Shown in pieces: positions 4,773-50,060 of a stretch of DNA of 64,000 nt. The position numbers and the translations under genes were made by a program. The stretch's first letter is position 1; every line of letters starts with the position of its first letter. The notes beneath the pieces are model-generated. The model was not told where the DNA came from. It saw nothing but the letters and a program-made list of their open reading frames with translations, and did not search any database. Source of the DNA: Streptomyces sp. NBC_01463 (lineage in GTDB: Bacteria; Actinomycetota; Actinomycetes; Streptomycetales; Streptomycetaceae); NCBI GenBank assembly GCA_036227345.1, contig CP109468.1, positions 8,432,001 to 8,496,000 of the forward strand, read 5' to 3'.

Positions 4773-7700
4773 ATGAGATGGAAGCAACTCGGACGGCGGT
4801 TCGCCGTCGGAGCGGTGACGGCGGCATTGATGACGGTCGGGCTGCTGCCGGTCGCCGCCTCGGCCGCCGAGCAGGGCCCCGACCTGGCCCTCGGTAAGCA
4901 GGTGACGGCCGGCGGGTCGCACGGTGCCTACCCGGCGTCCAACGTCACCGACGGCAGCCAGCAGACGTACTGGGAGGGCGCCGGCGCATTCCCGCAGTGG
5001 GTCAGGATCGACCTCGGCGGCCGGTTCGACGTCGACCAGGTGGTCCTGAAGCTGCCGGCCACCTGGGAGGCGCGGACCCAGACCCTCGCCATCCAGGGCA
5101 GCACCGACGGAAGCACCTTCAGCGCCCTGTCCGCCTCGGCCGCACGCGCGTTCAGCCCCTCGGCCGGCAACACCGTCACCATCGGGTTCACCGCGAAGGA
5201 GACGCGGTACATCCGGGTGCAGGTGACCGCCAACACCGGCTGGAGCGCCGCCCAGCTCTCCCAGGTGGAGGTCCACGGCGAGGCCGCCGGGACCGACCCC
5301 GGCGGCCCGTCACCCGCCGTCGGGTCCAACCTGGCGTTGAACAAGCCCATCGAGGCATCCTCGTTCGTGCAGGGCTATGTGGCGCCCAACGCCAATGACG
5401 ACAAGCTCACCACGTACTGGGAGTCGAACGGATACCCCTCGACCCTGACGGTGAAGCTCGGCGCCGACGCCGACATCGAGGCCGTCGTCGTCAAGCTCTC
5501 CCCGGACCAGGCCTGGGCGACCCGCACCCAGAGCATCGAGGTGCTCGGCCGCGCCCAGTCGGCCACCGGCTTCACCTCGCTGAAGGCCCGGGCCGACTAC
5601 GTCTTCAACCCCTCCGGCAGCCAGAACACGGTCACGATCCCCGTCAGCGGGCGGTTCGCGGACGCGCAGCTCAAGTTCTTCTCCAACACCGGCGCTCCCG
5701 GCGCCCAGGTCGCGGAGGTCCAGGTCGTCGGCACCGCAGCCCCCAACCCCGACCTGACCGTCTCCGACCTGACCTGGTCGCCCGCGTCGCCGTCCGAGAA
5801 GGACGACGTCACCGTCGCGGCCACCGTACGCAACACGGGCACCGCCGCAGCCGCGGCGACGACGGTCGACGTCAGCGTCGAGGGCGTGGTCGCGGGCAGC
5901 GCACCCGTGGGCGCCCTGGCCGCCGGAGCCACGGCCACCGTGCAGGTCGGCGTCGGCAAGCGGCCGATGGGCGCCTACAGCGTCTCGGCGGTCGTCGACC
6001 CGACGGACACCATCGTCGAGCAGGACAACAGCAACAACAGCCGCACCGCCGCCACCAAGCTCCAGATCGCGCAGAGCCCCGGCCCCGACCTCGAAGTGCT
6101 CGGCATCACCTCCAGCCCCTCGAACCCCGCCGTCGGCGCTGCGGTCACGTTCACCGCTTCCGTACACAATCGCGGTACCACGGCGGTCACTTCCCCGACG
6201 GTCACCCGCCTCCTCGTGGAGAGCACCACGCTGAACGGTACGACCGGCACGATCCCCGCCGGCGGCACGGTCACCGTCCCCCTCAGCGGGAGCTGGACCG
6301 CCAAGAGCGGCGGCGCCAACCTGACGGCCACCGCGGACGCGACCGGGGTCGTCGAGGAGACCAACGAGAACAACAACGTCTTCTCGCGCTCCATCGTGGT
6401 CGGGCGCGGGGCCGCGGTCCCGTACACCGAGTACGAGGCGGAGGCCGGTGCCTACCAGGGCACGCTGCTCAAGACCGACCAGAAGCGCACCTTCGGGCAC
6501 ACCAACTTCGCCACCGAGTCCTCCGGCCGCCAGTCCGTGCGGCTCGACTCCACCGGCCAGTTCGTGGAGGTCACCTCGACCGTGCCGTCGAACTCGATCG
6601 TGGTCCGCAACTCGATACCCGACGCCCCCGCCGGCGGCGGCGCCGAGGCCACCATCAGCCTGTACGTCAACAACACCTTCGTCCGGAAGCTGACGCTCTC
6701 CTCCAAGCACAGCTGGCTGTACGGCGACACGGACAGCCCGGAGGGGCTGACCAACCGGCCGTCGGGCGACGCCCGCAGGATGTTCGACGAGTCCAACGCC
6801 CTTCTCGGCCAGACCTACCCCGCCGGGACGAAGTTCCGTCTCCAGCGCGACGCGGGCGACTCCGCCTCCTTCTACGTCATCGACCTCGTCGACCTGGAGC
6901 AGGTGGCACCGGCGTCCGCCCAGCCGGCCGGCTGCACCTCGATCACCGCCTACGGTGCGGTGCCGAACGACGGGATCGACGACACCGACGCCATCCAGCG
7001 GGCGGTGACGGCCGACCAGAACGGTGACATCGGCTGTGTGTGGATTCCGGCGGGACAGTGGCGGCAGGAGCAGAAGATCCTGACCGACGACCCGCTGAAC
7101 CGGGGCCAGTACAACCAGGTCGGCATCAGTGACGTCACGATCCGCGGCGCCGGCATGTGGCACTCGCAGCTCTACACCCTCACCGCGCCGCAGGACGCGG
7201 GCGGCATCAACCACCCGCACGAGGGCAACTTCGGCTTCGATATCGACGACAACACCCAGATCTCGGACATCGCGATCTTCGGCTCCGGCACCATCCGGGG
7301 CGGTGACGGCAACGCCGAGGGCGGCGTCGGTCTCAACGGCCGCTTCGGCAAGGACACCAAGATCACCAACGTGTGGCTCGAGCACGCCAACGTGGGTGTG
7401 TGGGTCGGCCGCGACTACGACAACATCCCGGAGCTCTGGGGCCCGGGCGACGGCGTCGAGTTCAACGGGATGCGGATTCGCGACACGTACGCGGACGGCA
7501 TCAACTTCGCGAACGGCACCCGCAATTCGACGGTGTTCAACTCCTCCTTCCGCTACACCGGTGACGACTCGCTGGCCGTCTGGTCGAGCAAGTACGTGAA
7601 GAACCAGTCGGTGGACATCGGCCACGACAACCACTTCCGCAACAACACGATCCAGCTCCCCTGGAGGGCCAACGGCATCGCGGTATACGGCGGTTACGGC

Positions 7701-8174
7701 AACACGATCGAGAACAACATCATCTCCGACACGATGAACTACCCCGGCATCATGCTGGCCACGGACCACGATCCGCTGCCCTTCTCCGGGAAGACGCTGA
7801 TCGCCAACAACGCACTCCACCGCACGGGCGGGGCGTTCTGGGGCGAGGCCCAGGAGTTCGGCGCCATCACCCTGTTCGCGGCGAGCCAGGACATCCCGGG
7901 TGTCACGATCCGCGACACCGACATCTACGACTCGACGTACGACGGGATCCAGTTCAAGTCGGGCGGCGGGACGGTGCCCGGCGCGGAGATCTCGAACGTC
8001 CGCATCGAGAACTCCCTCAACGGGTCCGGCATCCTCGCGATGGGCGGCGCGCGCGGCAGCGCGACGCTGACCGGTGTGACCATCACCGGCTCGGCCCAGG
8101 GCGACGTGCTCGTCGAACCCGGATCACAGTTCGTCATCAACGGCGGCGCGGGAGGGGCGTCGGCCCGGAAGTAG
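4773..8174 (+). CDS. secreted multi-domain alpha-1,3-glucanase-like protein (GH87 type)
   Basis: A 1133-residue exported protein. Residues 1 to about 32 form a signal peptide (RR near the start, hydrophobic core, ASAAEQ cleavage region). Then come two discoidin-type F5/8C carbohydrate-binding domains (about 35-170 and 180-320), two CARDB domains (starting near 327 and 439), a CBM6/35-like module (near 551) and a right-handed beta-helix from about 721 to the end. In the helix, YADGINF places Asp908 exactly 23 and 24 residues before Asp931-Asp932 in TGDDSL, the spacing I recall for the three catalytic aspartates of GH87 enzymes. Expected role: hydrolysis of fungal or dental alpha-1,3-glucan outside the cell. 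ATG 4773 has AGAGGA upstream. Substrate specificity is inference. Confidence 0.78.
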   Translation: MRWKQLGRRFAVGAVTAALMTVGLLPVAASAAEQGPDLALGKQVTAGGSHGAYPASNVTDGSQQTYWEGAGAFPQWVRIDLGGRFDVDQVVLKLPATWEARTQTLAIQGSTDGSTFSALSASAARAFSPSAGNTVTIGFTAKETRYIRVQVTANTGWSAAQLSQVEVHGEAAGTDPGGPSPAVGSNLALNKPIEASSFVQGYVAPNANDDKLTTYWESNGYPSTLTVKLGADADIEAVVVKLSPDQAWATRTQSIEVLGRAQSATGFTSLKARADYVFNPSGSQNTVTIPVSGRFADAQLKFFSNTGAPGAQVAEVQVVGTAAPNPDLTVSDLTWSPASPSEKDDVTVAATVRNTGTAAAAATTVDVSVEGVVAGSAPVGALAAGATATVQVGVGKRPMGAYSVSAVVDPTDTIVEQDNSNNSRTAATKLQIAQSPGPDLEVLGITSSPSNPAVGAAVTFTASVHNRGTTAVTSPTVTRLLVESTTLNGTTGTIPAGGTVTVPLSGSWTAKSGGANLTATADATGVVEETNENNNVFSRSIVVGRGAAVPYTEYEAEAGAYQGTLLKTDQKRTFGHTNFATESSGRQSVRLDSTGQFVEVTSTVPSNSIVVRNSIPDAPAGGGAEATISLYVNNTFVRKLTLSSKHSWLYGDTDSPEGLTNRPSGDARRMFDESNALLGQTYPAGTKFRLQRDAGDSASFYVIDLVDLEQVAPASAQPAGCTSITAYGAVPNDGIDDTDAIQRAVTADQNGDIGCVWIPAGQWRQEQKILTDDPLNRGQYNQVGISDVTIRGAGMWHSQLYTLTAPQDAGGINHPHEGNFGFDIDDNTQISDIAIFGSGTIRGGDGNAEGGVGLNGRFGKDTKITNVWLEHANVGVWVGRDYDNIPELWGPGDGVEFNGMRIRDTYADGINFANGTRNSTVFNSSFRYTGDDSLAVWSSKYVKNQSVDIGHDNHFRNNTIQLPWRANGIAVYGGYGNTIENNIISDTMNYPGIMLATDHDPLPFSGKTLIANNALHRTGGAFWGEAQEFGAITLFAASQDIPGVTIRDTDIYDSTYDGIQFKSGGGTVPGAEISNVRIENSLNGSGILAMGGARGSATLTGVTITGSAQGDVLVEPGSQFVINGGAGGASARK

Positions 8175-39764: not shown

Positions 39765-40322
39765 CTACTCGGCGGCCGCCAGTACCGCCGTCCGGCTGTC
39801 CAGCGCCGCGGAGAACCCGTCCGTCACCTGCGCCAGCGCCTCGGCCGAGTCGGGCGCCACGGTCAGCGCGCCGTCGTGGCCGACGGTGATGTCCTTGTCG
39901 AGCGTGAACCACCCCGGCACGATGTGCGCGGCGCCCATGGAGCTCAGCACCGGGCGCAACGCGTAGTCGATCGCCAGCACATGGGCGATGCTGCCGCCGG
40001 TGGCGAGCGGCAGGACGGTCTTGCCGGTCAGCGCGTACTGGGGGAGCACGTCGAGCAGCGACTTGAGCAGCCCGGAGTAGGCCGCCTTGTACACGGGAGT
40101 GGCGATCACCACCCCGTCCGCCTGCTCGAAGAGTTCCGTGGCCCCGACGATCGCCGGGTGCTTGAAGTCCGCGCCCAGGAGCGCGTGGGGAGGCAGTGTG
40201 CGGACCTCCAGCGAGGTCACGTCGTGGCCCTGGGCCCTCAGCCGGTCGTCCAGCTCACGCAGGAGCCGCGCGGTGCGGGAGGTCGAGGACGGGCTGCCGG
40301 ACACGGACAGGATGGTGGCCAT
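39765..40322 (-). CDS. ssuE: NADPH-dependent FMN reductase (SsuE-like)
   Basis: A 185-residue flavodoxin-fold reductase. It has TILSVSGSPSSTSRTARLLRELDDRL (FMN phosphate loop GSPSxxSRT) and ADGVVIATPVYKAAYSGLLKSLLDVLPQYALTGKTVLPLATGGSIAHVLAIDYALRPVLSSMGA, the SsuE/MsuE signature. It supplies reduced FMN to a two-component monooxygenase, here most likely the LLM enzyme at 41271 in the same operon. Last gene of the minus-strand organosulfur operon. Confidence 0.92.
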   Translation of the reverse strand: MATILSVSGSPSSTSRTARLLRELDDRLRAQGHDVTSLEVRTLPPHALLGADFKHPAIVGATELFEQADGVVIATPVYKAAYSGLLKSLLDVLPQYALTGKTVLPLATGGSIAHVLAIDYALRPVLSSMGAAHIVPGWFTLDKDITVGHDGALTVAPDSAEALAQVTDGFSAALDSRTAVLAAAE

Positions 40323-40400
40323 GGGGGAACCTTTCGGATCGGGGAACGCGAGTGGGCGGGGCGGTACCGGCCGGGCGGACGTGCGGCCGGACGACATCGG

Positions 40401-41201
40401 TCACCAGGCACTGGACTCCACCGCGATCACAGGCGTCAGCTCGTTGCGCACGGTCTCCAGGAAGGTGACGGTCTCGGCAGCCACGGAACGGTGCTGGAGA
40501 TCGTTCAGCACGTCGTGGTGGCCGCCGCGGACCACCGAGAGGCGGGCCCGGGAGCGTGACTTCGCCGTACCGGCCAGTGCGGAGTGGTCGGCGAGCGGGT
40601 CCTCGTCCCCGACCAGGATCAGGGTCGGGGTCGGGACAGCGGCGCTCGCGTCCGACCCGTCGCCGCTCTCGCCGGCGTAGGCCGCCGCGAGCAGCGCTTC
40701 CGGGACCGGCTCCCCGAGCGATCCCCGCCGCACCCCGGAATCCTGGCTGAGCGTGTGGCGATGGGCGGGGCAGGACGTACGCACGTCGAGCTCCTGCTCC
40801 CACGTCCCGGCCGTCGTGGACGCCAGGCCGGGGAGGCCCGCGAGGACGACCGCGTCCGGCCGCCAGGTGCCGCGGGCCGCGGTCGGACCGAGCAGCGCGG
40901 CCACGGCCGCGGCGCCCGAGTCGGCGCCCACCACCACGACCGGACGGACGACGCCGTCGTCGCCGGCGGCGGTGCCGTTTGCCGCCTCCGCCAGCTCCGC
41001 GCCGAACCGGGTCAGCGCCGCGGTGAGACCGCCGGAGCCGAGGCCGGGTGCGTCGACGACGCGTACGCGGTAGGCGTCGGCGGCCAGGCGCCGGCCGAAA
41101 CGGGCGTAGGCCGCGCGGGTCTCGCCCCGGCCCGGCACCACGAGGACGGTGCCGCGTGTGCGCAGGCCCTCGGGGCCGAAGTGGTCGGTGTACTCGGGCA
41201 T
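40401..41201 (-). CDS. alpha/beta hydrolase in the sulfur operon
   Basis: A 266-residue alpha/beta-hydrolase-fold protein. Strand/loop segments RGTVLVVPGRGETRAAYARFGRRLAADAYRVRVVDAPGLG and RPVVVVGADSGAAAVAALL (nucleophile elbow GADSGA) are clear; an acid in LILVGDEDPLADHSA and His in RGGHHDVLND complete the triad. It would hydrolyse an ester, thioester or amide of the imported compound or of the monooxygenase product. An AGGAGT precedes ATG 41201. It lies between the LLM monooxygenase and ssuE, all in one direction with short gaps. Confidence 0.82.
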   Translation of the reverse strand: MPEYTDHFGPEGLRTRGTVLVVPGRGETRAAYARFGRRLAADAYRVRVVDAPGLGSGGLTAALTRFGAELAEAANGTAAGDDGVVRPVVVVGADSGAAAVAALLGPTAARGTWRPDAVVLAGLPGLASTTAGTWEQELDVRTSCPAHRHTLSQDSGVRRGSLGEPVPEALLAAAYAGESGDGSDASAAVPTPTLILVGDEDPLADHSALAGTAKSRSRARLSVVRGGHHDVLNDLQHRSVAAETVTFLETVRNELTPVIAVESSAW

Positions 41202-41270
41202 GTCGGACTCCTGCTGGTTCGGGTGCGGTGGGGGCGGGGGCACGGCTGCGTCGCCGTGGACCGGGGGCGG

Positions 41271-42629
41271 TCAGTCGTGCACGAGCTCCGGCTCGGGCTC
41301 GGACGCGCGCGCCAGGGTGTGGCGGTTGTCCGGCACCGGCAGCCCGAGGTTGCCGCGCAGCGTGTCGGCCTCGTACTCCGTGCGGAACAGGCCGCGCTTC
41401 TGCAGGAGCGGCACCACACCGTCCACGAAACGGCCGAGGTCGTCGTTGTTCCGGAAGGCGAGGTTGATCCCGTCGAAGGTGCCGGCATCGAACCACCGCT
41501 CGATCGTGTCGGCCACGGTCTCCGGAGCGCCGACGAACGGGGAGCTGCGGAACGCGTTGACGGACTCGGCGACCTGGCGCAGGGTCAGGTTCTCGGTCCG
41601 GGCGCGCTCGATGAGCTTCGCCGCCCCGGTCCGGCCCCCCTTCTCCGCGAGGTGGGAGATGTCCGGGAACGGCGCGTCCAGGTCGTGCACGCTGAAGTCG
41701 TACGCGCCGAAGGAGCGGCCCAGCAGTGCGAGGTTGCGCGCGAAGTCGTTGTCCTCCTCGAATATCTCCCGCTCGCGCCGCCTGGCGTCCGCGTCGGTCG
41801 CCCCGACGATCGGGCCGCCGTGGATGAAGACCTTGATGTGGTCGGGGTTGCGTCCGTAGGCGGCGGTACGCGTCTTGATGTCGGCGTAGTACTCCTGCGC
41901 CTGCTCCAGGGAACCGCCCGGCGCGTAGATGCCCTCGGCCACCCGAGCGGCCAGGTCGCGCCCCTCGGCGGAGACCCCCGCCTGGAAGATGACCGGCTGG
42001 CCCTGGGGCGAACGGGAGAGGTTGAGCGGGCCGGCCACCTTGAAGTGCTCTCCGACGTGGTCGAGCCCGTGCAGCCTGGCCGGGTCGAGGAACACGTCAC
42101 GTGCCACGTCCGCCGGGAAGGCGTCGTCCTCGTAGGAGTCCCAGAGACCGCGGGCGACCTGGACGAACTCCAGGGCGCGGCCGTACCGGGTGGCGTAGTC
42201 GAGGTGTTCGTCCAGGCCGAAGTTCCTGGACGTGCCGGTGTCGAAGCTGGTGACGACGTTCCACCCGGCGCGCCCGCCGCTGATGTGGTCGAGGGAGGAG
42301 AACCGGCGGGCGAGGTTGAACGGCGAGTTGTACGTGGAACTCGCCGTGCCGACCAGGCCGATGTGCCTGGTGTGGGTGGCGACCGCGGACAGCAGCGTGA
42401 GCGGTTCCAGCCGGTTGAGGTAGTGCGACGGGTAGGTGTCGTTGATGAACTGGCTGTCGACGACGAACAGCGCGTCGAAGAGCGCGTGTTCGGCGGCCTG
42501 GGCCTGCTGGATGTAGTAGTTGATGTCGATGCTGGAGTTCTTCGCTACGAGCGGGTCCTTCCAGAGGCCGTGCTGGCCCGGGCCTCCGACGCCGTACGGG
42601 TGCAGTGCGAGATGGATCGTGCGGGACAT
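41271..42629 (-). CDS. NtaA/SnaA/DszA-family FMN-dependent monooxygenase
   Basis: A 452-residue luciferase-like monooxygenase. Typical blocks are AEHALFDALFVVDSQF, LEPLTLLSAVATHTRHIGLVGTASSTYNSPFNLARRFSSLDHISGGRAGWNVVTSFDTGTSRNFGL, GPLNLSRSPQGQPVIFQAGVSAEGRDLAARVAEGIY and AYGRNPDHIKVFIHGG. This family uses FMNH2 from a partner reductase to oxygenate N- or S-containing organics (nitrilotriacetate, dibenzothiophene sulfone, dimethyl sulfide, N-acetyl-succinocysteine). The operon context (ABC importer, SsuE, cysteine leader peptide) argues for an organosulfur substrate. Codes upstream of the hydrolase and downstream of the ABC ATPase. Confidence 0.9.
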   Translation of the reverse strand: MSRTIHLALHPYGVGGPGQHGLWKDPLVAKNSSIDINYYIQQAQAAEHALFDALFVVDSQFINDTYPSHYLNRLEPLTLLSAVATHTRHIGLVGTASSTYNSPFNLARRFSSLDHISGGRAGWNVVTSFDTGTSRNFGLDEHLDYATRYGRALEFVQVARGLWDSYEDDAFPADVARDVFLDPARLHGLDHVGEHFKVAGPLNLSRSPQGQPVIFQAGVSAEGRDLAARVAEGIYAPGGSLEQAQEYYADIKTRTAAYGRNPDHIKVFIHGGPIVGATDADARRREREIFEEDNDFARNLALLGRSFGAYDFSVHDLDAPFPDISHLAEKGGRTGAAKLIERARTENLTLRQVAESVNAFRSSPFVGAPETVADTIERWFDAGTFDGINLAFRNNDDLGRFVDGVVPLLQKRGLFRTEYEADTLRGNLGLPVPDNRHTLARASEPEPELVHD

Positions 42630-42710: not shown

Positions 42711-43580
42711 TCAGGCGTTCAGCAGGGCGCGCAGGGCTTCGCGTTCGGACCGGTCGGCGGGACCCGTGCGCAGGGTCGGGGCCGAGCTGACGAGCAGCCG
42801 GGTGTAGGCGTGCCGGGGGTGGTTGATGACGTCCCGGGCGGCGCCCACCTCGACGAGCTCTCCGCGGTAGAGGACGGCGATGCGGTCGGCGGTCCCGGCC
42901 ACGGACCCCAGGTCGTGGGAGATCAGTACGAGCGCCACCCCGGTGTCCCGGAGCTCCTTGAGGATCTCCAGGACCTGGACGCGGTTGGCGGAGTCCAGCG
43001 CGCTGACGGGCTCGTCGAGGATGACCAGCCGCGGTTCGGTGACGAGCGCCCGGGCCACGGCGACGCGCTGCCGCTGGCCGCCGGAGAGTTCCCCGGGCAG
43101 CCGCTCCAGCAGGTCGGCGGCCAGGTGGACGCGGTCGAGGAACGAACGGGCCCTGGCCGCCGCCTCCTTGCGCGGCACGCCCTGGATGAGCAGCGGTTCG
43201 GTCAGCGAGTCCTCGACGGTGAGGTCCGGATCGAGGCTGCGCAGCGGGTCCTGGAAGACGTACTGGACCACGCCGCGGCGCCGCAGCGCGCGCCACTGGC
43301 GGTGGCCGTACGCGCTCACGTCCTCGCCGCCGATACGGATGGTGCCTGCGGAGAGTGGCACGAGCCCGAGCGCGGCACGGGCGAGCGTGGACTTGCCGGA
43401 GCCCGTCTCGCCGATGAGCCCGACGGTCTCGCCGGAAGAGACGCCGAGCGTGACGTCGTGCAGGGCGCGTCGGCGCCGGCGGCCCCGGCCGTAGCGCACC
43501 TCCAGCCCGGCGATGTCCAGGACGGGGCCGGCGACCTCCGCGGGGGTGTCCGTCCGCGCGTCCGCGGTCTCCGTGGTCAC
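42711..43580 (-). CDS. ABC transporter ATP-binding protein (OppF/DppF-like)
   Basis: A 289-residue ATPase. Walker A is GLIGETGSGKSTLARA, the Q-loop YVFQDPLRSLDP, the signature LSGGQRQRVAVARAL, Walker B LVILDEPVSALD and the H-loop LISHDLGSVAG. The C-terminal HPRHAYTRLLVSSAPTL extension is that of peptide/nickel-type importers. It starts at GTG 43580, whose last bases overlap the stop of the preceding gene (GTGA), so the two ATPases are translationally coupled. It powers import through the permeases at 44464 and 45358. Confidence 0.93.
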   Translation of the reverse strand: MTTETADARTDTPAEVAGPVLDIAGLEVRYGRGRRRRRALHDVTLGVSSGETVGLIGETGSGKSTLARAALGLVPLSAGTIRIGGEDVSAYGHRQWRALRRRGVVQYVFQDPLRSLDPDLTVEDSLTEPLLIQGVPRKEAAARARSFLDRVHLAADLLERLPGELSGGQRQRVAVARALVTEPRLVILDEPVSALDSANRVQVLEILKELRDTGVALVLISHDLGSVAGTADRIAVLYRGELVEVGAARDVINHPRHAYTRLLVSSAPTLRTGPADRSEREALRALLNA

Positions 43581-44467
43581 GACGACTCCTTCGGTGCGAG
43601 GAACTTCTCCAGGCCGTACTGGTGGTGCTCGTCGATCAGCAGCCGGGTGTACGCGTGCTGCGGATCGTGCAGGACGGACCGGGTCGGGCCGCGCTCCACC
43701 ACGACGCCCTGCCGCATCACCAGGACCTCGTCGCACAGCTGGGCGACGACGGCCAGGTCGTGGGAGACGACGACGAGCGCGAGACCGGTCCGCTCGCGCA
43801 GCTCGGCCAGCAGGTCGAGGATCTCGGCCTGGACGGTGACGTCGAGCGCGGTCGTGGCCTCGTCCGCGATCAGCGTGCGCGGCTCGACGGCGATGGCCGC
43901 CGCGATCAGGACGCGCTGGAGCATGCCGCCGGAGAGTTCGTACGTGTACTGGCCGTAGACCAGCTCCGGGTCGCGCAGCCGAACCGCCCGCAGCAGTTCG
44001 ACGGCGCGGTGCCGTGCCTCGCGCCGCTTCAGCCCGAGTTTGGCCCGCAGCACCTCGGCGATCTGGGCACCCACCCGGATCGACGGGTTGAGATAGGACG
44101 CCGGGTCCTGGAAGACGGCGCCGATCGTGGAGCCGCGCAGACCGGTCCACTGGCTCGGTGTCAGGGTCGCGATGTCGGTTCCGGCGATCTCGATGGAGCC
44201 GCCGGAGACGTCGAAGTGCGGGGGCAGGATGCCGAGTGCGGCCCGGCAGGTCAGCGTCTTGCCGCTGCCGGACTCGCCGACGATGCCGACCGCGTTGCCC
44301 GGGGCGAGTTCGAAGCTCACGCCGTGCACGATCTCCCGGTCGGTGACCCGGTCGCTGATGCGTACGTCGCGCAGGGCAAGCACCGGCTCGGCCGCCGGTA
44401 CGGCTCCGTCGGCGGTGACGGTGCGTTCGGCGTGTCGGGTGACGATGTTCTGCGAAAGCGTCGTCAC
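43577..44467 (-). CDS. ABC transporter ATP-binding protein (OppD/DppD-like)
   Basis: A 296-residue ATPase. Walker A is GIVGESGSGKTLTCRA, Q-loop AVFQDPASYLNPSI, signature YELSGGMLQRVLIAAAIA, Walker B LIADEATTALDVTVQ and H-loop VSHDLAVVAQLCD; the C-terminal DPQHAYTRLLIDEHHQ is of the peptide-importer type. It starts at GTG 44467, overlapping the stop of the upstream permease (GTGA), and its own stop overlaps the next ATPase. It forms the heterodimeric motor with the protein at 42711. Confidence 0.93.
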   Translation of the reverse strand: MTTLSQNIVTRHAERTVTADGAVPAAEPVLALRDVRISDRVTDREIVHGVSFELAPGNAVGIVGESGSGKTLTCRAALGILPPHFDVSGGSIEIAGTDIATLTPSQWTGLRGSTIGAVFQDPASYLNPSIRVGAQIAEVLRAKLGLKRREARHRAVELLRAVRLRDPELVYGQYTYELSGGMLQRVLIAAAIAVEPRTLIADEATTALDVTVQAEILDLLAELRERTGLALVVVSHDLAVVAQLCDEVLVMRQGVVVERGPTRSVLHDPQHAYTRLLIDEHHQYGLEKFLAPKESS

Positions 44468-45354
44468 AGTGAACCTCCGGTGGGAACGGGACCGGTCCTG
44501 CCGAGGCGGTTGGCCCGGGCCCTGCGCCGGTTGACGAGCGCCCGGCCGGCCTCGCCGGAGACGTCACGGATGGCGTCGGCGAGGAGGTTGCAGGCCCAGA
44601 CGGTGATCATGATCAGCAGTGCGGGCGCCACCGGGGCCCAGGGCTGGTGGCTGAGGTAGCCCAGGTCCGAGGCGAGCAGCCCGCCCCAGGTGGGTGCCGG
44701 GGGCTGCACCCCGATGCCGAGGAACGTCAGACTCGACACGATGACGAAGCCGACGCCGATGGTCTGGGCGAGCGCGACCGCGATCGGCGGGAGCACCTTG
44801 ATCCAGACGTGGCGCCGTACGATCCATCCGACGGAGGCCCCCGAGATGACCGCTGCCTCCACGTACGGGGAGCGGGCCACGGCGAGCGTGGCCGCCCTGG
44901 CCACCCGGTAGAACAGCGGCGAGACGAGCGCGCCCGTCACGAGCATGGCCTGGGTGATGCCGTTGCCCAGCAGGGCGATCACGGCGATGGCGAACAGCAG
45001 GAACGGCAGCGCGACCAGTGTGTCGGCCAGCCGCAGCGTGAACCATTCGAAGGCCCGGCCGAGATACACCGAGAGGATGCCGGGGACCGCCCCGACGGCC
45101 AGGGCCATCAGCGCGACTTCGAGCGAGCCGAGGACACTGACGCGGGAACCGTCCAGGAGCCGGCTGAACACGTCGCGGCCGAGGTAGTCGGTGCCCAGCC
45201 AGTGGGCGCCGGACACGGCCGAGAGCGCGTTGTCGCTGGTGGCCAGCGGATCCTGCGGAGCGATCCACGGGCCGAGAACGGCGAGCAGTGCGACGACCGC
45301 GAGGATGACGACGGCGATCCGGCCGGTGGTGAGTGAGAGAACGCGGCGCACCAT
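44464..45354 (-). CDS. ABC transporter permease (DppC-like)
   Basis: A 296-residue permease. One N-terminal membrane helix (IAVVILAVVALLAVLGPWIAP) precedes a periplasmic-side loop with GAHWLGTDYLGRDVFSRLLDGSRVSV, the OppC signature, and five further helices; the EAA loop is YVEAAVISGASVGWIVRRHVWIKVLPPI. It pairs with the DppB-like permease 3 bp upstream. The stop overlaps the start of the next ATPase. Confidence 0.92.
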   Translation of the reverse strand: MVRRVLSLTTGRIAVVILAVVALLAVLGPWIAPQDPLATSDNALSAVSGAHWLGTDYLGRDVFSRLLDGSRVSVLGSLEVALMALAVGAVPGILSVYLGRAFEWFTLRLADTLVALPFLLFAIAVIALLGNGITQAMLVTGALVSPLFYRVARAATLAVARSPYVEAAVISGASVGWIVRRHVWIKVLPPIAVALAQTIGVGFVIVSSLTFLGIGVQPPAPTWGGLLASDLGYLSHQPWAPVAPALLIMITVWACNLLADAIRDVSGEAGRALVNRRRARANRLGRTGPVPTGGSL

Positions 45355-45357
45355 GGG

Positions 45358-46386
45358 TCACACCCCCCGCTGTGATGCCGGCATCACACGTGCCAGCACC
45401 AGATTGATGATCAGGTTGAAGGAGACGACCAGCACGATCGACACCACCAGGACCCCCTGCACGGCGGGCACGTCGCCGGCCTGGGCGGAGTCGTTGGCGA
45501 ACCGGCCGAAGCCCTGCAGGCCGAAGATCCATTCCGTCACGACGGACGCCCCGACCAGCGCCGGGAACTTCTGGCCGAGGGTGGCGAGCGCGGGACCGAG
45601 ACCGTTGCGCAGGACATGGCCGAAGAAGATGCGCCGCGGGCTCAGCCCCCGTACCACCGCGCCCGTCACGTAGTTCTCGTCGTACGCCGCGACGAGACTG
45701 CTGCGCAGCTGGCGGGCGACGTCGGCGATGACGTCGAAGCTGAGCGCGAGTGCGGGCAGGGTGATGTGCGCGAGCCAGGGACCGACGCCCTGCTCGGCCG
45801 GGATGTAGCCGGCCGAGGGGAACAGATGGAGACCGACCGCCAGGACCGCGACGAGCACGATGCCGACGACGAAGGCCGGCATCACCGAGATCACGGTGAC
45901 GAAGCCGGTGATCGCCCGGTCGACCGCCGTGGTGCGCTTCAGCGCCGCCAGGGTGCCCAGCCCGAAGCCGGCGACCACCCCGATGACCAGCGCGAACGTC
46001 GCGACCGAGAGGCTCACGCCCAGGCCGAGTCCGATCAGCGTCGAGATGTCGGCGCCGTTGACCCAGCTGGTGCCGAGCTGACCGTGCAGGACGTCGGAGA
46101 ACCAGTCCCAGTACTGCGTCAGGAAGGGCTTGCCGAGGCCCCACTGGGCCTCGATCCGGTGGATGGCCTCGGGCGTCGCCTCCTCGCCCAGCTGGATGCG
46201 TGCCGGGCTGAGTCCGCTCATCGACCGCAGGGCGAACGTCACGAACGTCGCGACCAGGAACACGGGCACGAAGATCGCGACCGACCGGGCGAGAGCCGCC
46301 AGGACGCGGCCTGCCGCGTGCCGGGCCCTGGCCGTGGCCACGGAACCGCGGCGGACGGGTCCGGCCTGAGGAACGTTCGTCGTCAT
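45358..46386 (-). CDS. ABC transporter permease (DppB-like)
   Basis: A 342-residue permease with six predicted helices. The first is SVAIFVPVFLVATFVTFALRSM, then PARIQLGEEATPEAIHRIEAQWGLGKPFLTQYWDWFSDVLHGQLGTSW, the OppB periplasmic segment. The EAA loop reads LVAAYDENYVTGAVVRGLSPRRIFFGHVLRNGLGPAL. The N-terminal cytoplasmic tail (about 30 residues, rich in Arg/Ala) is a little longer than usual. It forms the pore with the DppC-like protein. Confidence 0.92.
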   Translation of the reverse strand: MTTNVPQAGPVRRGSVATARARHAAGRVLAALARSVAIFVPVFLVATFVTFALRSMSGLSPARIQLGEEATPEAIHRIEAQWGLGKPFLTQYWDWFSDVLHGQLGTSWVNGADISTLIGLGLGVSLSVATFALVIGVVAGFGLGTLAALKRTTAVDRAITGFVTVISVMPAFVVGIVLVAVLAVGLHLFPSAGYIPAEQGVGPWLAHITLPALALSFDVIADVARQLRSSLVAAYDENYVTGAVVRGLSPRRIFFGHVLRNGLGPALATLGQKFPALVGASVVTEWIFGLQGFGRFANDSAQAGDVPAVQGVLVVSIVLVVSFNLIINLVLARVMPASQRGV

Positions 46387-46425: not shown

Positions 46426-48000
46426 TCAGCTGCCGCCGGAGAGGGTCACACCGGTCCAGTCGATGTGGGCGGGGTTCTTCGGCAGGCCGGAGACCTGCTT
46501 GCTCTTGGCGAAGAGGTTCGGCGAGGAGTACGTGAACACCAGCGCCTTGCTCTTCAGGCCCGCCCGGGTCGCCTCCCGCAGGGTCTCGGTGTAGTCCGTT
46601 GCGTCCAGCGGCGTGCGGCGGACCTTGACGACGGCCGCCTCGAAGCCGGACGGCTCGTACGGGGTGCTGAGGTTCAGCGGACCGTTGGGGCCGAAGTGGG
46701 CGGTGAGTGTCTGTACGGCGGAGTCGCGACCCGTCGTCGAATACAGCGAGAACGTCAGGTCCTTGGCGAAGAACGGGGTGGCCCAGTTCTTGTCGATCTT
46801 GATCGTGACGGTGATGCCCACCGCGGCCAGCTGCGACTGGACGATCTCGGCCTGCGGGTCCTCCGAGGGGATGACCAGGTTCAACTTGATGTCACCGGCC
46901 TTGTGACCGGCGTCGGCGAGCAGTTGCTTCGCCTTCGCGGGGTCGTACGGGTAGCGGTCCGCCGACTCCGGGTCGTAGGCGACGTACCCCTTCGGGAACG
47001 GCTGGTCGGTCACCTCGCCGTAGCCGAACGTCAGCTTGTCGACGAACTCCTGGCGGTTCACCGCGTGGCGCACGGCGTCGACGACCCGGTCGTCGTCGAA
47101 GGGCGCCTTGTTGATGTTGAGGCTGATGTTGGAGGCGTTGAAGCCGGGCTGGGAGAAGACGTCGAGGCCGGCCTTCTTCGCGGCGTCGGCCTGACTCGGG
47201 TCGAGGTCGGCGAAGTTGTACACACCGGTCTGCAGGCCCGAGACGACGGTCGAGGCATCGGGGGCGGAGCTCAGTTCGACATCGTCGATGTGGATGTTCT
47301 TCGCGTCCCAGTAGCCGGGGTTCTTCGTCAGTACGGCCTTGGTGCCGGGGATCAGCTGCTTGACGACGAACGGTCCCGCGCCGACCGGGTTCTGGTCCAG
47401 CTTGCCCGGGTCCTTCGCCGCCCTGGGGCTCGCGATCTGCAGCACGCGCTCACCGAGCAGCTGCGGAATCTGGTAGTCGACCTGGGAGAGGTGGAGCACC
47501 GCGTCCAGCCCCTTGGCCTCGACCGACCTGATCGAGGTCAGATCTCCGAACAGGGCGGAGTTCTTCTGCTTCTTGGCCCGCTCGATGGCCGCCTTGACCG
47601 CCGTAGCGTCGACCGGTTCGCCGTCGCTGAACTTCAGGCCGGGACGTAGGTGAAAGGTGATCAGGTCACCGCGGGCGTTGTACTTCCAGCTCTCGGCAAG
47701 GTCGGGAACGGCCTTGCCGCTCTCGTCAGTCCGGGTCAACGAGGCATAAACCAAGGCGAGTTCGCGGAACTGTGCACCGCTCCCCGAGACCACCGGGTCC
47801 CAGTGGCCGGGGAAGTAGGAGGAGGCCCACTTCAGTGTGGAGCCACCGGACGACGCGGAGACGTCACCGCCGCAGGCGCTCAGGGCGGGTGTGATCAGGG
47901 CGACGAGGGCGCTCCCGAGGGCGGCGGTACGCAGGCTGCCGGCCCGACGGGAGGGCCGGATACCCGGTCCGGTGCGGAAGGTGCTGAGTCGTGGAGACAT
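46426..48000 (-). CDS. ABC transporter substrate-binding lipoprotein (SBP family 5)
   Basis: A 524-residue extracellular solute-binding protein. The signal segment LRTAALGSALVALITPALSACGG ends in a lipobox, so it should be lipid-anchored. The mature part follows the family-5 plan: TLKWASSYFPGHWDPVVSG, ALVYASLTRTDESGKAVPDLAESWKYNARGDLITFHLRPGLKFSDGEPVDATAVKAAIERAKK, NPVGAGPFVVKQLIPGTKAVLTKNPGYWD, and LFAKSKQVSGLP at the end. Family 5 proteins bind peptides, nickel, glutathione or sulfur compounds; the neighbours favour an organosulfur ligand. It is the first large gene of the operon, preceded by a long leader. Confidence 0.92.
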   Translation of the reverse strand: MSPRLSTFRTGPGIRPSRRAGSLRTAALGSALVALITPALSACGGDVSASSGGSTLKWASSYFPGHWDPVVSGSGAQFRELALVYASLTRTDESGKAVPDLAESWKYNARGDLITFHLRPGLKFSDGEPVDATAVKAAIERAKKQKNSALFGDLTSIRSVEAKGLDAVLHLSQVDYQIPQLLGERVLQIASPRAAKDPGKLDQNPVGAGPFVVKQLIPGTKAVLTKNPGYWDAKNIHIDDVELSSAPDASTVVSGLQTGVYNFADLDPSQADAAKKAGLDVFSQPGFNASNISLNINKAPFDDDRVVDAVRHAVNRQEFVDKLTFGYGEVTDQPFPKGYVAYDPESADRYPYDPAKAKQLLADAGHKAGDIKLNLVIPSEDPQAEIVQSQLAAVGITVTIKIDKNWATPFFAKDLTFSLYSTTGRDSAVQTLTAHFGPNGPLNLSTPYEPSGFEAAVVKVRRTPLDATDYTETLREATRAGLKSKALVFTYSSPNLFAKSKQVSGLPKNPAHIDWTGVTLSGGS

Positions 48001-48418
48001 CTCGATCTCTCTGTACGAGGCCCCGCCCGGTTCAGGGCAGGCCGGACCGCGGAGGCGGCTGGAGGGCGGGCGGAAGTGGACCGGGGCGGTACCGGCCGGA
48101 GGGAGACGGTGATACGGAACCGCACCGGGACGGACCGTCACACCCCGAGCGCACACGGGCACGCAGGCCCACAGACGTGCACGTGCACACGTGTGAGGGT
48201 CCCGAACGGGGCGACGGCACCACAGGGGGTGGGAGTGCCGGACGAGAGCTTTCCCGAAGGGGAGTTGAGGTCCCTCGGGGCGGCAACATCACGACATTCC
48301 GTGCACGGGAGAGGGCACGGAGGCGAAGGCGCGAGGCAGGTGCGGCCCGGTGCGGCAGCGGGCAGTCGGTGCTGCCGGCGGGCGTCAGGCGGCGCCTGCG
48401 GATCGGAGCGGTGGGCGG
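48001..48418 (-). promoter_or_regulatory. long structured 5' leader between the leader peptide and the binding-protein gene
   Basis: About 420 nt between the leader-peptide stop and the binding-protein start, read on the minus strand. It contains a 7-bp stem CGGCAGC/GCTGCCG (48353-48359 with 48371-48377) shortly after the peptide, and a self-complementary ACGTGCACGTGCAC region near 48176-48200. It could form alternative hairpins that terminate or permit transcription depending on translation of the peptide. No known riboswitch signature (for example S-box GGCAACC) is seen. Confidence 0.45.
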
Positions 48419-48493
48419 TCAGCGACAGAGTGCGCTGGAGGTGCGCCGAAGATCCACGTATCGGCACTCCACACCGGGGTGCGTCGTGAGCAT
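48419..48493 (-). CDS. leaderless cysteine-linked leader peptide of the organosulfur operon
   Basis: A 24-residue ORF ending RYVDLRRTSSALCR. The pattern R-H/Y-VDL-x-R-x-x-SALCR matches the actinobacterial 'putative leader peptide' group, as I recall it, found upstream of sulfur-assimilation and transport operons. The ATG at 48493 begins six bases after a CAGGAT -10 box (48505-48500), itself 18 bp from a perfect TTGACA, so translation should begin on a leaderless mRNA. Cys10 and the terminal Cys23 could sense charged tRNA-Cys: ribosome stalling at low cysteine would alter folding of the downstream leader and allow the ABC operon to be transcribed. The regulatory mechanism is inference. Confidence 0.8.
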   Translation of the reverse strand: MLTTHPGVECRYVDLRRTSSALCR

Positions 48494-48499
48494 GGGCTC

Positions 48500-48547
48500 A
48501 TCCTGCTGGCCGTCCGGGGCGTCTGTCAATGGACACCAATCGGTGTC
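48500..48547 (-). promoter_or_regulatory. promoter and upstream inverted repeat of the organosulfur operon
   Basis: On the minus strand: -35 TTGACA (48529-48524), 18-bp spacer, -10 CAGGAT (48505-48500). Immediately upstream is an inverted repeat GACACC-AATC-GGTGTC (48532-48547 as read on the plus strand). The plus-strand 11-mer CAATGGACACC at 48527-48537 recurs next to the cupin promoter at 50018. A repeat upstream of the -35 suits an activator; overlap with the -35 edge also permits repression. Confidence 0.7.
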
Positions 48548-48561
48548 TCATTCGGTGGGAC

Positions 48562-48586
48562 GGGCTCTGACCGCAGGTCAGAGCCC
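48562..48586 (-). terminator. hairpin terminator of the Rrf2-DsbA unit
   Basis: GGGCTCTGACC (48562-48572) pairs perfectly with GGTCAGAGCCC (48576-48586) around GCA. The stop codon of the DsbA-like gene lies in the hairpin, so the unit ends there, just before the divergently facing operon promoter region. Confidence 0.75.
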
Positions 48587-49498
48587 TGTTGCTGCCCAGG
48601 GGGTGGTGGCGGGGTGCACCGCGGCCTCTTGGGGATGCAGCCACAGCGGGCCGTTTCCGGTGTCGACCCGGACCGCGTGCGAAGGCGCCCGGCCGCCTTC
48701 CGCCAGCAGCTCCGCCTCGGGACCGGTCAGGCTGCGATGGTGCTCCAGGGCCTCGTCCGGCGGGAGCGGCGCGAGGTCGCTCAGCAGCCCGGGACACAAG
48801 GCGTCAACCGCCGCCGCGTACGCGGCGAAGGGTCGCCAGCCGGGCACCGCGCGGTAGCCGGCGGGGGAGTGGAAAAGGAGAGTCGGGAGCGCGTAGCGGC
48901 TGCCGCCGTCGAGAGTCGTCCGGGCGGCACCGGGATGCGGTGACGCGTCCTGCACGGACAGCACCTCGGGCACCGGCCGGCGCGCCTCGGCCCGGTCCGC
49001 GCGGACCCGTTCGAGCACGGCGGCGGACGCGGCATCGGACTCCAGCCGTACGGGATCCAGCCCCGGGACACCGCGCGCCGCGGCCAGCGCGCGTGCGAGC
49101 GTGTCCGCCGGTTCACCGAGTACGAACACGCTCTCCCGCAGCCGCCGCAGCACCCGCTCGGCCACGGCGGCCCCTTGGAGCTCGGCAGCCCCGGCGACCA
49201 GCGAGGAGGGCCAGGAACTGGCCGCGACCCGGCTCAGCCGGACCGCCCGGGGCGCCAGCGTGTGTGCGGTGATCTCCTCCACGTACCGCGCGTACCAGGC
49301 GGTCTCGGCCGCCGGGTCGGGCGGCGGGTCGTCGTCGTGGTCGAAGAGGATCGCGTACGCACGCCGCCAGCGCACCCGCCCGTCCAGGGCCGCCCGCAGC
49401 CTGCGGAACACGGGCTCCGACCCCCAGGCCCACGGGCACATCGGATCGGTGTACTCGACGACCTCCACCACCGGGGACGGGTGCGGCGACCCCGTCAC
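48578..49498 (-). CDS. DsbA family (FrnE-like) thioredoxin-fold protein
   Basis: A 306-residue thioredoxin-fold protein. The N-terminal VVEVVEYTDPMCPWAWGSEPVFRRLRAAL gives the strand-helix start, but the active-site CxxC is CPWA, so only one cysteine remains, as in many FrnE/DsbA-like proteins that form mixed disulfides. The helical insertion and a cis-proline region (RYALPTLLFHSPAGYRAVPGWRPFAAYAAAV) follow. There is no signal peptide, so it should be cytoplasmic. It starts at GTG 49498, overlapping the stop of the Rrf2 gene (GTGA), so the two are co-translated; a thiol-related job is likely. Confidence 0.82.
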   Translation of the reverse strand: MTGSPHPSPVVEVVEYTDPMCPWAWGSEPVFRRLRAALDGRVRWRRAYAILFDHDDDPPPDPAAETAWYARYVEEITAHTLAPRAVRLSRVAASSWPSSLVAGAAELQGAAVAERVLRRLRESVFVLGEPADTLARALAAARGVPGLDPVRLESDAASAAVLERVRADRAEARRPVPEVLSVQDASPHPGAARTTLDGGSRYALPTLLFHSPAGYRAVPGWRPFAAYAAAVDALCPGLLSDLAPLPPDEALEHHRSLTGPEAELLAEGGRAPSHAVRVDTGNGPLWLHPQEAAVHPATTPWAATGL

Positions 49499-49929
49499 GA
49501 GACACCGACCCCGGTCGTCCGCTCGCGCACGCCCTCGGACAGCAGCGACGTCAGCGTGAGACCACCGAGGACCGCCGCGGCCTCCGCCTCGACCCGGCGC
49601 CACACCCCGGGCAGGGCCACGGCGGGCCCGGGATAGTCGAGCCCGGCCAGCGAGTCGCCGCGCAGAGTGATCACCTCGCCGTCGACAGCGCGCACGACGT
49701 CCAGCAACGAGATCTCACCGGCCGGACGGCCGAGCCAGTAACCGCCTTCGCAGCCGCGCTGGCTGCGCACCAGGCCTGCTCTGCGCAACTCGCCCACCAC
49801 GGACTTCAGGAACCGGAACGGGATCTCCTGCGAGGATGCGATGGCCTCACAGGTCAGGGGACGGCCAGGCTCACGGGCGAGCTCCAGGAGGGCCCGCGTG
49901 GCGTAGTCCGCCTTCGCGGAGATATGCAT
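49495..49929 (-). CDS. Rrf2 family transcriptional regulator
   Basis: A 144-residue Rrf2-type winged-helix protein: MHISAKADYATRALLELAREPGRPLTCEAIASSQEIPFRFLKSVVGELRRAGLVRSQRGCEGGYWLGRPAGEISLLDVVRAVDGEV. Only one cysteine (in RGCEGGYWL) is present, so it lacks the three-cysteine Fe-S site of IscR/NsrR and is closer in this respect to the cysteine-metabolism regulator CymR. A CATGAT box six bases before ATG 49929 suggests a leaderless mRNA. It overlaps the DsbA-like gene, is divergent from the cupin gene, and faces away from the organosulfur operon. Likely targets are its own region and the operon promoter. Confidence 0.9.
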   Translation of the reverse strand: MHISAKADYATRALLELAREPGRPLTCEAIASSQEIPFRFLKSVVGELRRAGLVRSQRGCEGGYWLGRPAGEISLLDVVRAVDGEVITLRGDSLAGLDYPGPAVALPGVWRRVEAEAAAVLGGLTLTSLLSEGVRERTTGVGVS

Positions 49930-49988: not shown

Positions 49989-50060
49989 ATTGCGGGAACA
50001 TTGCCGCAGGTGAAACGCAATGGACACCTCTTGACATCCTTTTCGGCGCCCCTCTAGCGT
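49989..50060 (+). promoter_or_regulatory. cupin promoter with Rrf2-type repeat region
   Basis: TTGACA (50031-50036), 18-bp spacer, TAGCGT (50055-50060), then seven bases to ATG 50068: a consensus promoter giving a leaderless mRNA. Upstream, CATTGC occurs at 49989 and 49999 and inverted as GCAATG at 50017-50022. The 11-mer CAATGGACACC at 50018-50028 is identical to the one at the organosulfur operon promoter. Confidence 0.7.

Follow-up and report, generated by a model that had tools for sequence, protein, structure and literature searches.

We analysed a 64,000-nt stretch of contig CP109468.1 of Streptomyces sp. NBC_01463 (hereafter the window). A short open reading frame (ORF) lies there upstream of an operon of transporter, monooxygenase, hydrolase and reductase genes. 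The features of the locus are as follows.

39765..40397, minus strand: SsuE-type NADPH-dependent FMN reductase (TIGR03567, 219.5 bits, cut-off 164.05)
40401..41243, minus strand: alpha/beta hydrolase (domain search)
41271..42629, minus strand: NtaA/DmoA-family FMN-dependent monooxygenase (TIGR03860, 487.8 bits, cut-off 279.7)
42711..43577, minus strand: ABC ATPase (domain search)
43577..44467, minus strand: ABC ATPase (domain search)
44464..45354, minus strand: ABC permease (domain search)
45358..46386, minus strand: ABC permease (domain search)
46426..48000, minus strand: SBP_bac_5 binding protein (domain search)
48001..48418, minus strand: untranslated leader, rich in C and poor in G over the first ~150 nt, no intrinsic terminator found
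48419..48493, minus strand: leader peptide ORF, 24 codons, MLTTHPGVECRYVDLRRTSSALCR and a stop, probably leaderless (conservation; NF042934, 25 bits)
48425..48427, minus strand: Cys23 codon TGT, 8 residues past the L of VDL, probable sensing codon
48464..48466, minus strand: Cys10 codon TGC, conserved in orthologs, outside the family motif
48500..48505, minus strand: −10 hexamer CAGGAT, 6 nt upstream of the ATG
48524..48529, minus strand: −35 hexamer TTGACA, its spacing conserved among operons
48532..48547, minus strand: palindrome GACACC-GATT-GGTGTC, two bases from the −35 hexamer, candidate operator
49495..49929, minus strand: Rrf2-family regulator, may regulate the operon promoter
50019..50038, minus strand: GATGTCAAGAGGTGTCCATT in the Rrf2 promoter, right half common to the operon palindrome

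The domain kinds agree with the eight-gene operon (ABC transporter, monooxygenase, hydrolase, FMN reductase) given in a preliminary description of this DNA. The SsuE-type reductase and the NtaA/DmoA-family monooxygenase both exceed their model cut-offs, which marks the operon as sulfur-related, with no substrate assigned. Upstream of the operon, ORF 48578–49603 is DsbA-like: it matched no NCBIfam model and corresponds to a gene annotated as DsbA family at the homologous locus of Streptomyces sp. NBC_01558. At that locus, sulfhydrylase and homoserine O-acetyltransferase genes come after the operon. An inverted repeat, GGGCTCTGACCTGCGGTCAGAGCCC (48562–48586), lies at the end of the DsbA-like ORF; it is partly kept in some orthologs, as judged by eye, and no T-tract comes after it.

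On the minus strand, the order TTGACA, 18 nt, CAGGAT, 6 nt, ATG can be read directly. The ATG at 48493 opens a frame whose product ends in SALCR and whose stop codon occupies 48421–48419. Both the promoter and the 24-codon ORF were thus found where the preliminary description had placed them, as was the gap of about 420 nt to the binding-protein gene, which starts with the ATG at 48000. No Rfam model matched in 47900–48700.

Orthologous operons were collected by a scan with the binding protein, which found 102 relatives, of which 80 were kept. Our denominator is the 76 orthologs whose upstream DNA extends to 400 nt or more; L081, L082, L093 and L102 have less and stand outside it. The preliminary description had proposed a search for conservation of the peptide and of the leader at 48001–48418 in related operons. 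The peptide turned out to be kept in 55 of the 76 orthologs, broken in one and absent from 20, and the conservation of this predicted peptide exceeds chance. As for the leader, an excess of C over G is kept, but the sequence is weakly conserved beyond about 40 nt past the stop codon (consensus, read by eye).

Together with the window, the 55 leader-bearing orthologs form a set of 56 operons, among which we counted 14 versions of the peptide. The window peptide has two dispersed Cys residues, and in 29 of the 56 operons there are three. The −10 hexamer is CAGGAT in 53 of the 56, the spacer measures 18 nt in 54 and 17 nt in two, and the −10 hexamer lies 6 or 7 bases from the ATG in all of them, a distance taken from sequence only. 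The 24-codon peptide is probably leaderless. A generic sigma-70 scan scored no promoter site here because CAGGAT is a weak −10 hexamer; the promoter is supported by its conservation among the operons and not by that scan.

In the broken copy (L108, Streptomyces sp. NRRL S-37, ~7573–7740), the promoter, the palindrome and the N terminus of the peptide are kept, and a short deletion inside the peptide shifts the frame ahead of SALCR. It is a natural variant without the presumed sensor Cys. The L082 record begins within the peptide, and the tail of its peptide differs. Judged by their record titles, the 20 orthologs without a leader come from Amycolatopsis, Actinokineospora, Janibacter, Frankia, Rhizobium and bins, that is, from genera beyond Streptomyces and its near kin, save for one Streptomyces; L124 retains the leader. 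Within 1500 nt of these 20 orthologs, neither the peptide ORF pattern nor the palindrome was found, and at E 1e-8 neither Rrf2 nor DsbA had a match in the stretch available around them. The absence of the leader from 20 of the 76 operons indicates that the operon can do without it in places.

Against the NCBIfam model NF042934 (cis_reg_atten), the window peptide scored 25 bits as a protein and 22.8 bits in a six-frame search, and three orthologous forms scored 15.9, 16.9 and 23.2 bits, all under the cut-off of 27. The core motif [VI]DLxRxxSAxC is present as VDLRRTSSALC, with residues 11–23 aligned to profile positions 7–19 (E 1e-5). The window peptide thus resembles members of this family in carrying VDLxRxxSAxC in a short ORF ahead of sulfur genes. 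It differs from them in its score and in a Tyr where 73 of the 74 tabulated members carry His or Ala. The predicted peptide is an edge member of the known actinobacterial "putative leader peptide" kind and kin of the mycobacterial Cys-rich leaders. The near-match and the sulfur-type operon bear out the preliminary description's statement that such peptides head actinobacterial sulfur operons. As the subfamily forms that we tried fall below the NCBI cut-off, the subfamily may go unannotated. For the homologous stretches in two plasmid records, the gene table, which is stated to be incomplete, gives no feature.

The mycobacterial leaders Ms5788A and Ms4527A (NF042933, NF042936) have the core motif in common with the window peptide. 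A distant member of the family, L153, exceeds the Ms5788A cut-off; it has TGT at the same Cys position, and a rhodanese domain is encoded by the ORF picked downstream of it. Consecutive Cys codons occur in L153 and similar members, whereas in the window peptide Cys10 and Cys23 are the only cysteines and stand apart, so the run that characterises mycobacterial attenuators is missing. In comparison with those leaders, the window locus adds a long leader and a candidate operator palindrome.

The window is not the only such site in its genome, in which NF042934 has 17 matches at E ≤ 0.01 (the window included), 13 of them above the cut-off. Ten further matches (L019–L028, E 0.335 or worse, with E 7.44 for L028) were left out. 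Among the matches listed, a relatives sample that includes the own genome has a match at E ≤ 0.01 in all 41 of its genomes, and in a class sample at least 144 of 197 genomes match at E ≤ 0.001. The first genes downstream of the own-genome sites, chosen by third-position GC, which is fallible, encode ThiS, sulfatase, rhodanese (two), luciferase-like (two), sulfite reductase, TauD, SDF symporter, SBP_bac_5 (three, including the window), ABC ATPase and ROK regulator domains. If ThiS and luciferase-like domains are counted as sulfur-linked, which we take them to be, 8 of the 16 other sites precede a sulfur-linked domain gene. Four more (L006, L007, L013 and L017) precede transporters without an assigned substrate. 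At the remaining four (L010, L011, L014 and L018) the first gene gives no clear sulfur sign, being uninformative in the case of L010 (GST_C), L011 (no Pfam match) and L014 (ETF, 751 nt off). The L010 match (G000:C1:444782-444829) ends in SSAY ahead of the Cys position, and its leader has nearly no excess of C over G (0.37 vs 0.35).

One feature of the family concerns a single codon. At the Cys of SAxC, eight residues past the L of VDL, the codon is TGT at 134 of 136 family loci, TGC at one (L225) and a non-Cys codon at one (L010); these loci, among the matches listed, are related, so the counts are non-independent, and apart from those of the own genome they were picked among the top scores of the lists. 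They comprise 17 loci of the own genome, 29 from relatives, 30 from the class sample and 60 further ones. L158, which was read separately, enters this codon count and stays outside the C/G count given below, and L010, which has no key Cys, enters both. The other Cys codons in the parsed peptides show the opposite preference (36 TGT, 164 TGC, n = 200; Fisher 9e-58 vs the key Cys). A control of 121 annotated CDS from a single Streptomyces plasmid has TGC for Cys 209 times and TGT 37 times (n = 246), and ten genes of the window have TGC seven times and TGT three times. In the own genome, TGT occupies the key position at all 16 sites that have the Cys (binomial 7e-14 vs 37/246, and 1e-9 vs the 26/95 TGT seen ahead of a pyrimidine).

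It is worth stressing that the NF042934 profile selects the VDL, R and C residues, so that amino-acid conservation across the family is partly built in; the choice of codon cannot be selected in this way because the profile works on protein. When third-position columns are compared over the key codon and the 14 codons upstream of it, the key codon alone lies above 0.90. In all 56 operons Cys23 is TGT and Cys10 is TGC. The preliminary description had left the stalling codon as Cys23 or Cys10, and this position-specific usage makes Cys23, read as UGU, the likely sensor and speaks against Cys10.

The genome's 67 tRNA matches were run through ARAGORN, some of them twice from overlapping loci, and every tRNA-Cys called has the anticodon GCA. 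UGU and UGC share this one anticodon, which excludes differential charging of isoacceptors as the reason for the codon choice. In 7 of the 16 own-genome peptides and 28 of 134 overall, no other Cys occurs from 13 codons before the key Cys to the stop. Such peptides make a simple string of hungry codons a poor account and suggest help from the nascent chain.

The base after the key codon is a pyrimidine in 130 of 134 cases, vs 95 of the 246 Cys codons in the control CDS. The effect is weaker than it appears because TGT in the control is itself mostly followed by a pyrimidine (26 of 37, vs 129 of 133 in the family; Fisher 1e-5); in the own genome the count is 14 of 16. The pyrimidine spans Arg, Pro, Cys, Leu, Gln, His, Ser, Phe and stop codons. 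It may reflect an effect of codon context. A hairpin at TGT was considered as the reason for UGU and rejected: alifold pairs CAGCG with CGCTG in the operon leaders, but by eye the pairing is not kept in L009 and L013. The UGU rule in these predicted leader peptides is the new element of our analysis, and the family's near-constant use of the rarer codon hints at how the leader senses cysteine.

Beyond the peptide, the untranslated leader has a skewed composition. In the first three 50-nt windows past the stop, C exceeds G in every one of the 56 operons (C 0.51–0.53, G 0.25–0.28), and in the next three it does so in 52, 45 and 52 of them; in the control stretch, which lies upstream of the peptide, such an excess is seen in 37 of the 56. 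Over 150 nt, C exceeds G at 135 of 135 family loci (17 own, 29 from relatives, 29 from the class sample, and 40 and 20 more), compared with 30 of 58 control 5′ regions. These controls were all drawn from a single Streptomyces plasmid (three stretches), excluding the leader of the homologous operon itself. The mean bias in the class sample is 0.11 and 0.13, with some loci at 0.01, vs 0.18 in the own genome.

No intrinsic terminator-like site was found in the window leader, nor in the leaders of the 56 operons or the 17 own-genome sites (400 nt each). As a check, the same finder picked up a synthetic control as well as 13 sites in 2 × 49.9 kb from a different Streptomyces. Across the 56 leaders, 8-mers hold five T at most. 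Compared with shuffled sequences, folding energies are mixed (mean z −0.32; 14 of the 56 leaders). The absence of detectable terminators suggests that a Rho-type or a translational mechanism is needed. A C-rich, G-poor leader of this kind fits Rho-dependent attenuation, short of proof, and the bias may simply mean that the leader is unstructured.

We consider it likely that a cysteine-responsive leader peptide with Cys23 as its sensor controls the organosulfur operon. A ribosome would initiate at the 5′ AUG of the leaderless mRNA and, after ...CRYVDLRRTSSAL, reach the UGU of Cys23, which tRNA-Cys with anticodon GCA would read by G-U wobble. With plentiful Cys-tRNA, the ribosome would pass UGU and finish at UGA, the C-rich leader would be left bare and transcription would halt early, most likely through Rho. 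With scarce Cys-tRNA, the ribosome would be held on UGU, probably aided by the conserved nascent chain, and the polymerase would continue into the ABC transporter and monooxygenase genes. The neighbouring Rrf2 regulator would probably set promoter activity at the palindrome.

The step through Rho, taken alone, we hold only tentatively, at somewhat less than evens. E. coli tnaC, which is subject to Rho-dependent attenuation, stalls at its own stop codon and has free Trp as the inducer. Our locus resembles tnaC in having a leader peptide, a C-rich untranslated stretch past the stop and no intrinsic terminator that we could find, but here the proposed stall would depend on starvation and take place at a Cys codon. 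Of the long C-rich stretch, a ribosome held at UGU would cover just the first few bases, which makes it hard to see how Rho would be blocked.

A ribosome on the short ORF might instead decide the translation of the first structural gene, with no early stop of transcription. According to excerpts of two reports (PMC9031893, PMC13236596), the translation of downstream genes is under the control of related leaders in mycobacteria. Across the operons, however, the first gene lies 236–596 nt from the peptide (median 354 nt). A leader this long and, past about 40 nt, this weakly conserved makes specific pairing with the ribosome-binding site of that gene unlikely, and so we regard translational control as an unlikely account.

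The palindrome, which the preliminary description had overlooked, points to a second layer of control. GACACC-N4-GGTGTC is present in all 56 operons, and the exact pattern has two matches in the genome, the other being L138. A wider regulon defined by the palindrome was tried and rejected, as the counts with at most one mismatch were nearly equal for the pattern and its reversed control (29 vs 22). A close match to the Rrf2 regulator adjoins 52 of the 55 leader-bearing operons and also the L108 operon. The exceptions are L109 (no match), L101 (no match; short upstream DNA) and L083 (a weaker match on the opposite strand). The window's Rrf2 protein scored 61.6 bits against the CymR-type model NF047409, below its cut-off of 195, and exceeded the superfamily cut-off alone.

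For the promoters of the Rrf2 genes, matches under 70% identity or on the opposite strand were skipped. In the 250 nt upstream of Rrf2, GATGTCAAGAGGTGTCCATT occurs within three mismatches in 53 of 53 promoters (29 exact), vs at least seven mismatches in each of 51 control stretches; the 20-mer was derived from these promoters, so the contrast with the controls alone counts. A stricter pattern was found in 33 of 54. In contrast to the halves of the operon palindrome, the left half-site at 50019–50038 seems to repeat the right one in direct, not inverted, orientation. The shared half-site suggests putative binding by which Rrf2 would control both itself and the operon.

Could Rrf2 at the palindrome be the main control, and the peptide of little effect? 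The constant palindrome, the nearby regulator and the half-site common to the Rrf2 promoters all favour such a reading. Nevertheless, in the 56 operons the peptide is kept as strictly as the palindrome, and its family recurs at 16 further sites of the genome, half of them before sulfur-linked domain genes. Control mainly by Rrf2 is therefore distinctly improbable.

The usual mechanism for amino-acid leader peptides is attenuation of the trp type, in which alternative hairpins end in an intrinsic terminator. The small hairpins that alifold places within the peptide-coding region would suit it, but alifold gave no consensus helix in the 110 nt past the stop, no terminator-like site was found in the leaders of the window, the 56 operons and the 17 own-genome sites, and the 56 leaders lack T-rich 8-mers, making this mechanism very improbable. 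That the ORF is untranslated and its DNA conserved as promoter or operator alone is barely credible, given that, despite several codons invariant at all three positions in the 56 operons, Leu, Gly, Asp, Thr and Ala codons change synonymously with the residues mostly kept, and paralogs with different third positions retain the motif.

Control by a cysteine-sensing leader peptide also has precedents. The cysteine response of related mycobacterial leaders has been published (Canestrari 2020, as cited by others). In the excerpts of the reports that follow, Rho was proposed for mycobacterial Cys leaders and graded "rather weak" (Seliverstov et al. 2005; PMC1262725), and mycobacterial cysteine uORFs were put forward as untested candidates (Shell et al. 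2015; PMC4633059). Excerpts of PMC8632094 describe uORFC-8-2 ahead of Rhodobacterales cysS, likewise a uORF with cysteine codons proposed as an attenuator; it differs from our peptide in its tandem Cys codons, its intrinsic terminator and the dominance of UGC, so UGU is not general to cysteine attenuators. The S. lividans reannotation, as excerpted, gives eight leader peptides, none said to be cysteine-responsive, with three Cys codons' worth of Cys in the MetL leader (PMC8079986). In the partial texts that our literature search returned, no report of the UGU rule or of this leader was found; Canestrari 2020 may contain either.

Actinobacterial cysteine leaders have been catalogued, and their mode of action is unsettled. 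We propose, with more doubt than confidence, that the sulfur leaders of this class share a single-codon sensor: one UGU, fixed eight residues past VDL and read by wobble, at which the conserved nascent chain would deepen a stall. The sensing principle across the class would then be slow decoding by wobble, which the following pyrimidine perhaps worsens. The near-invariant UGU makes the sensed quantity testable by one base (UGU to UGC), and, given the bias of C over G and the lack of terminators, 17 sites in one genome offer a test of the Rho question. Additionally, the leader family could flag sulfur-scavenging genes that have gone unrecognised.
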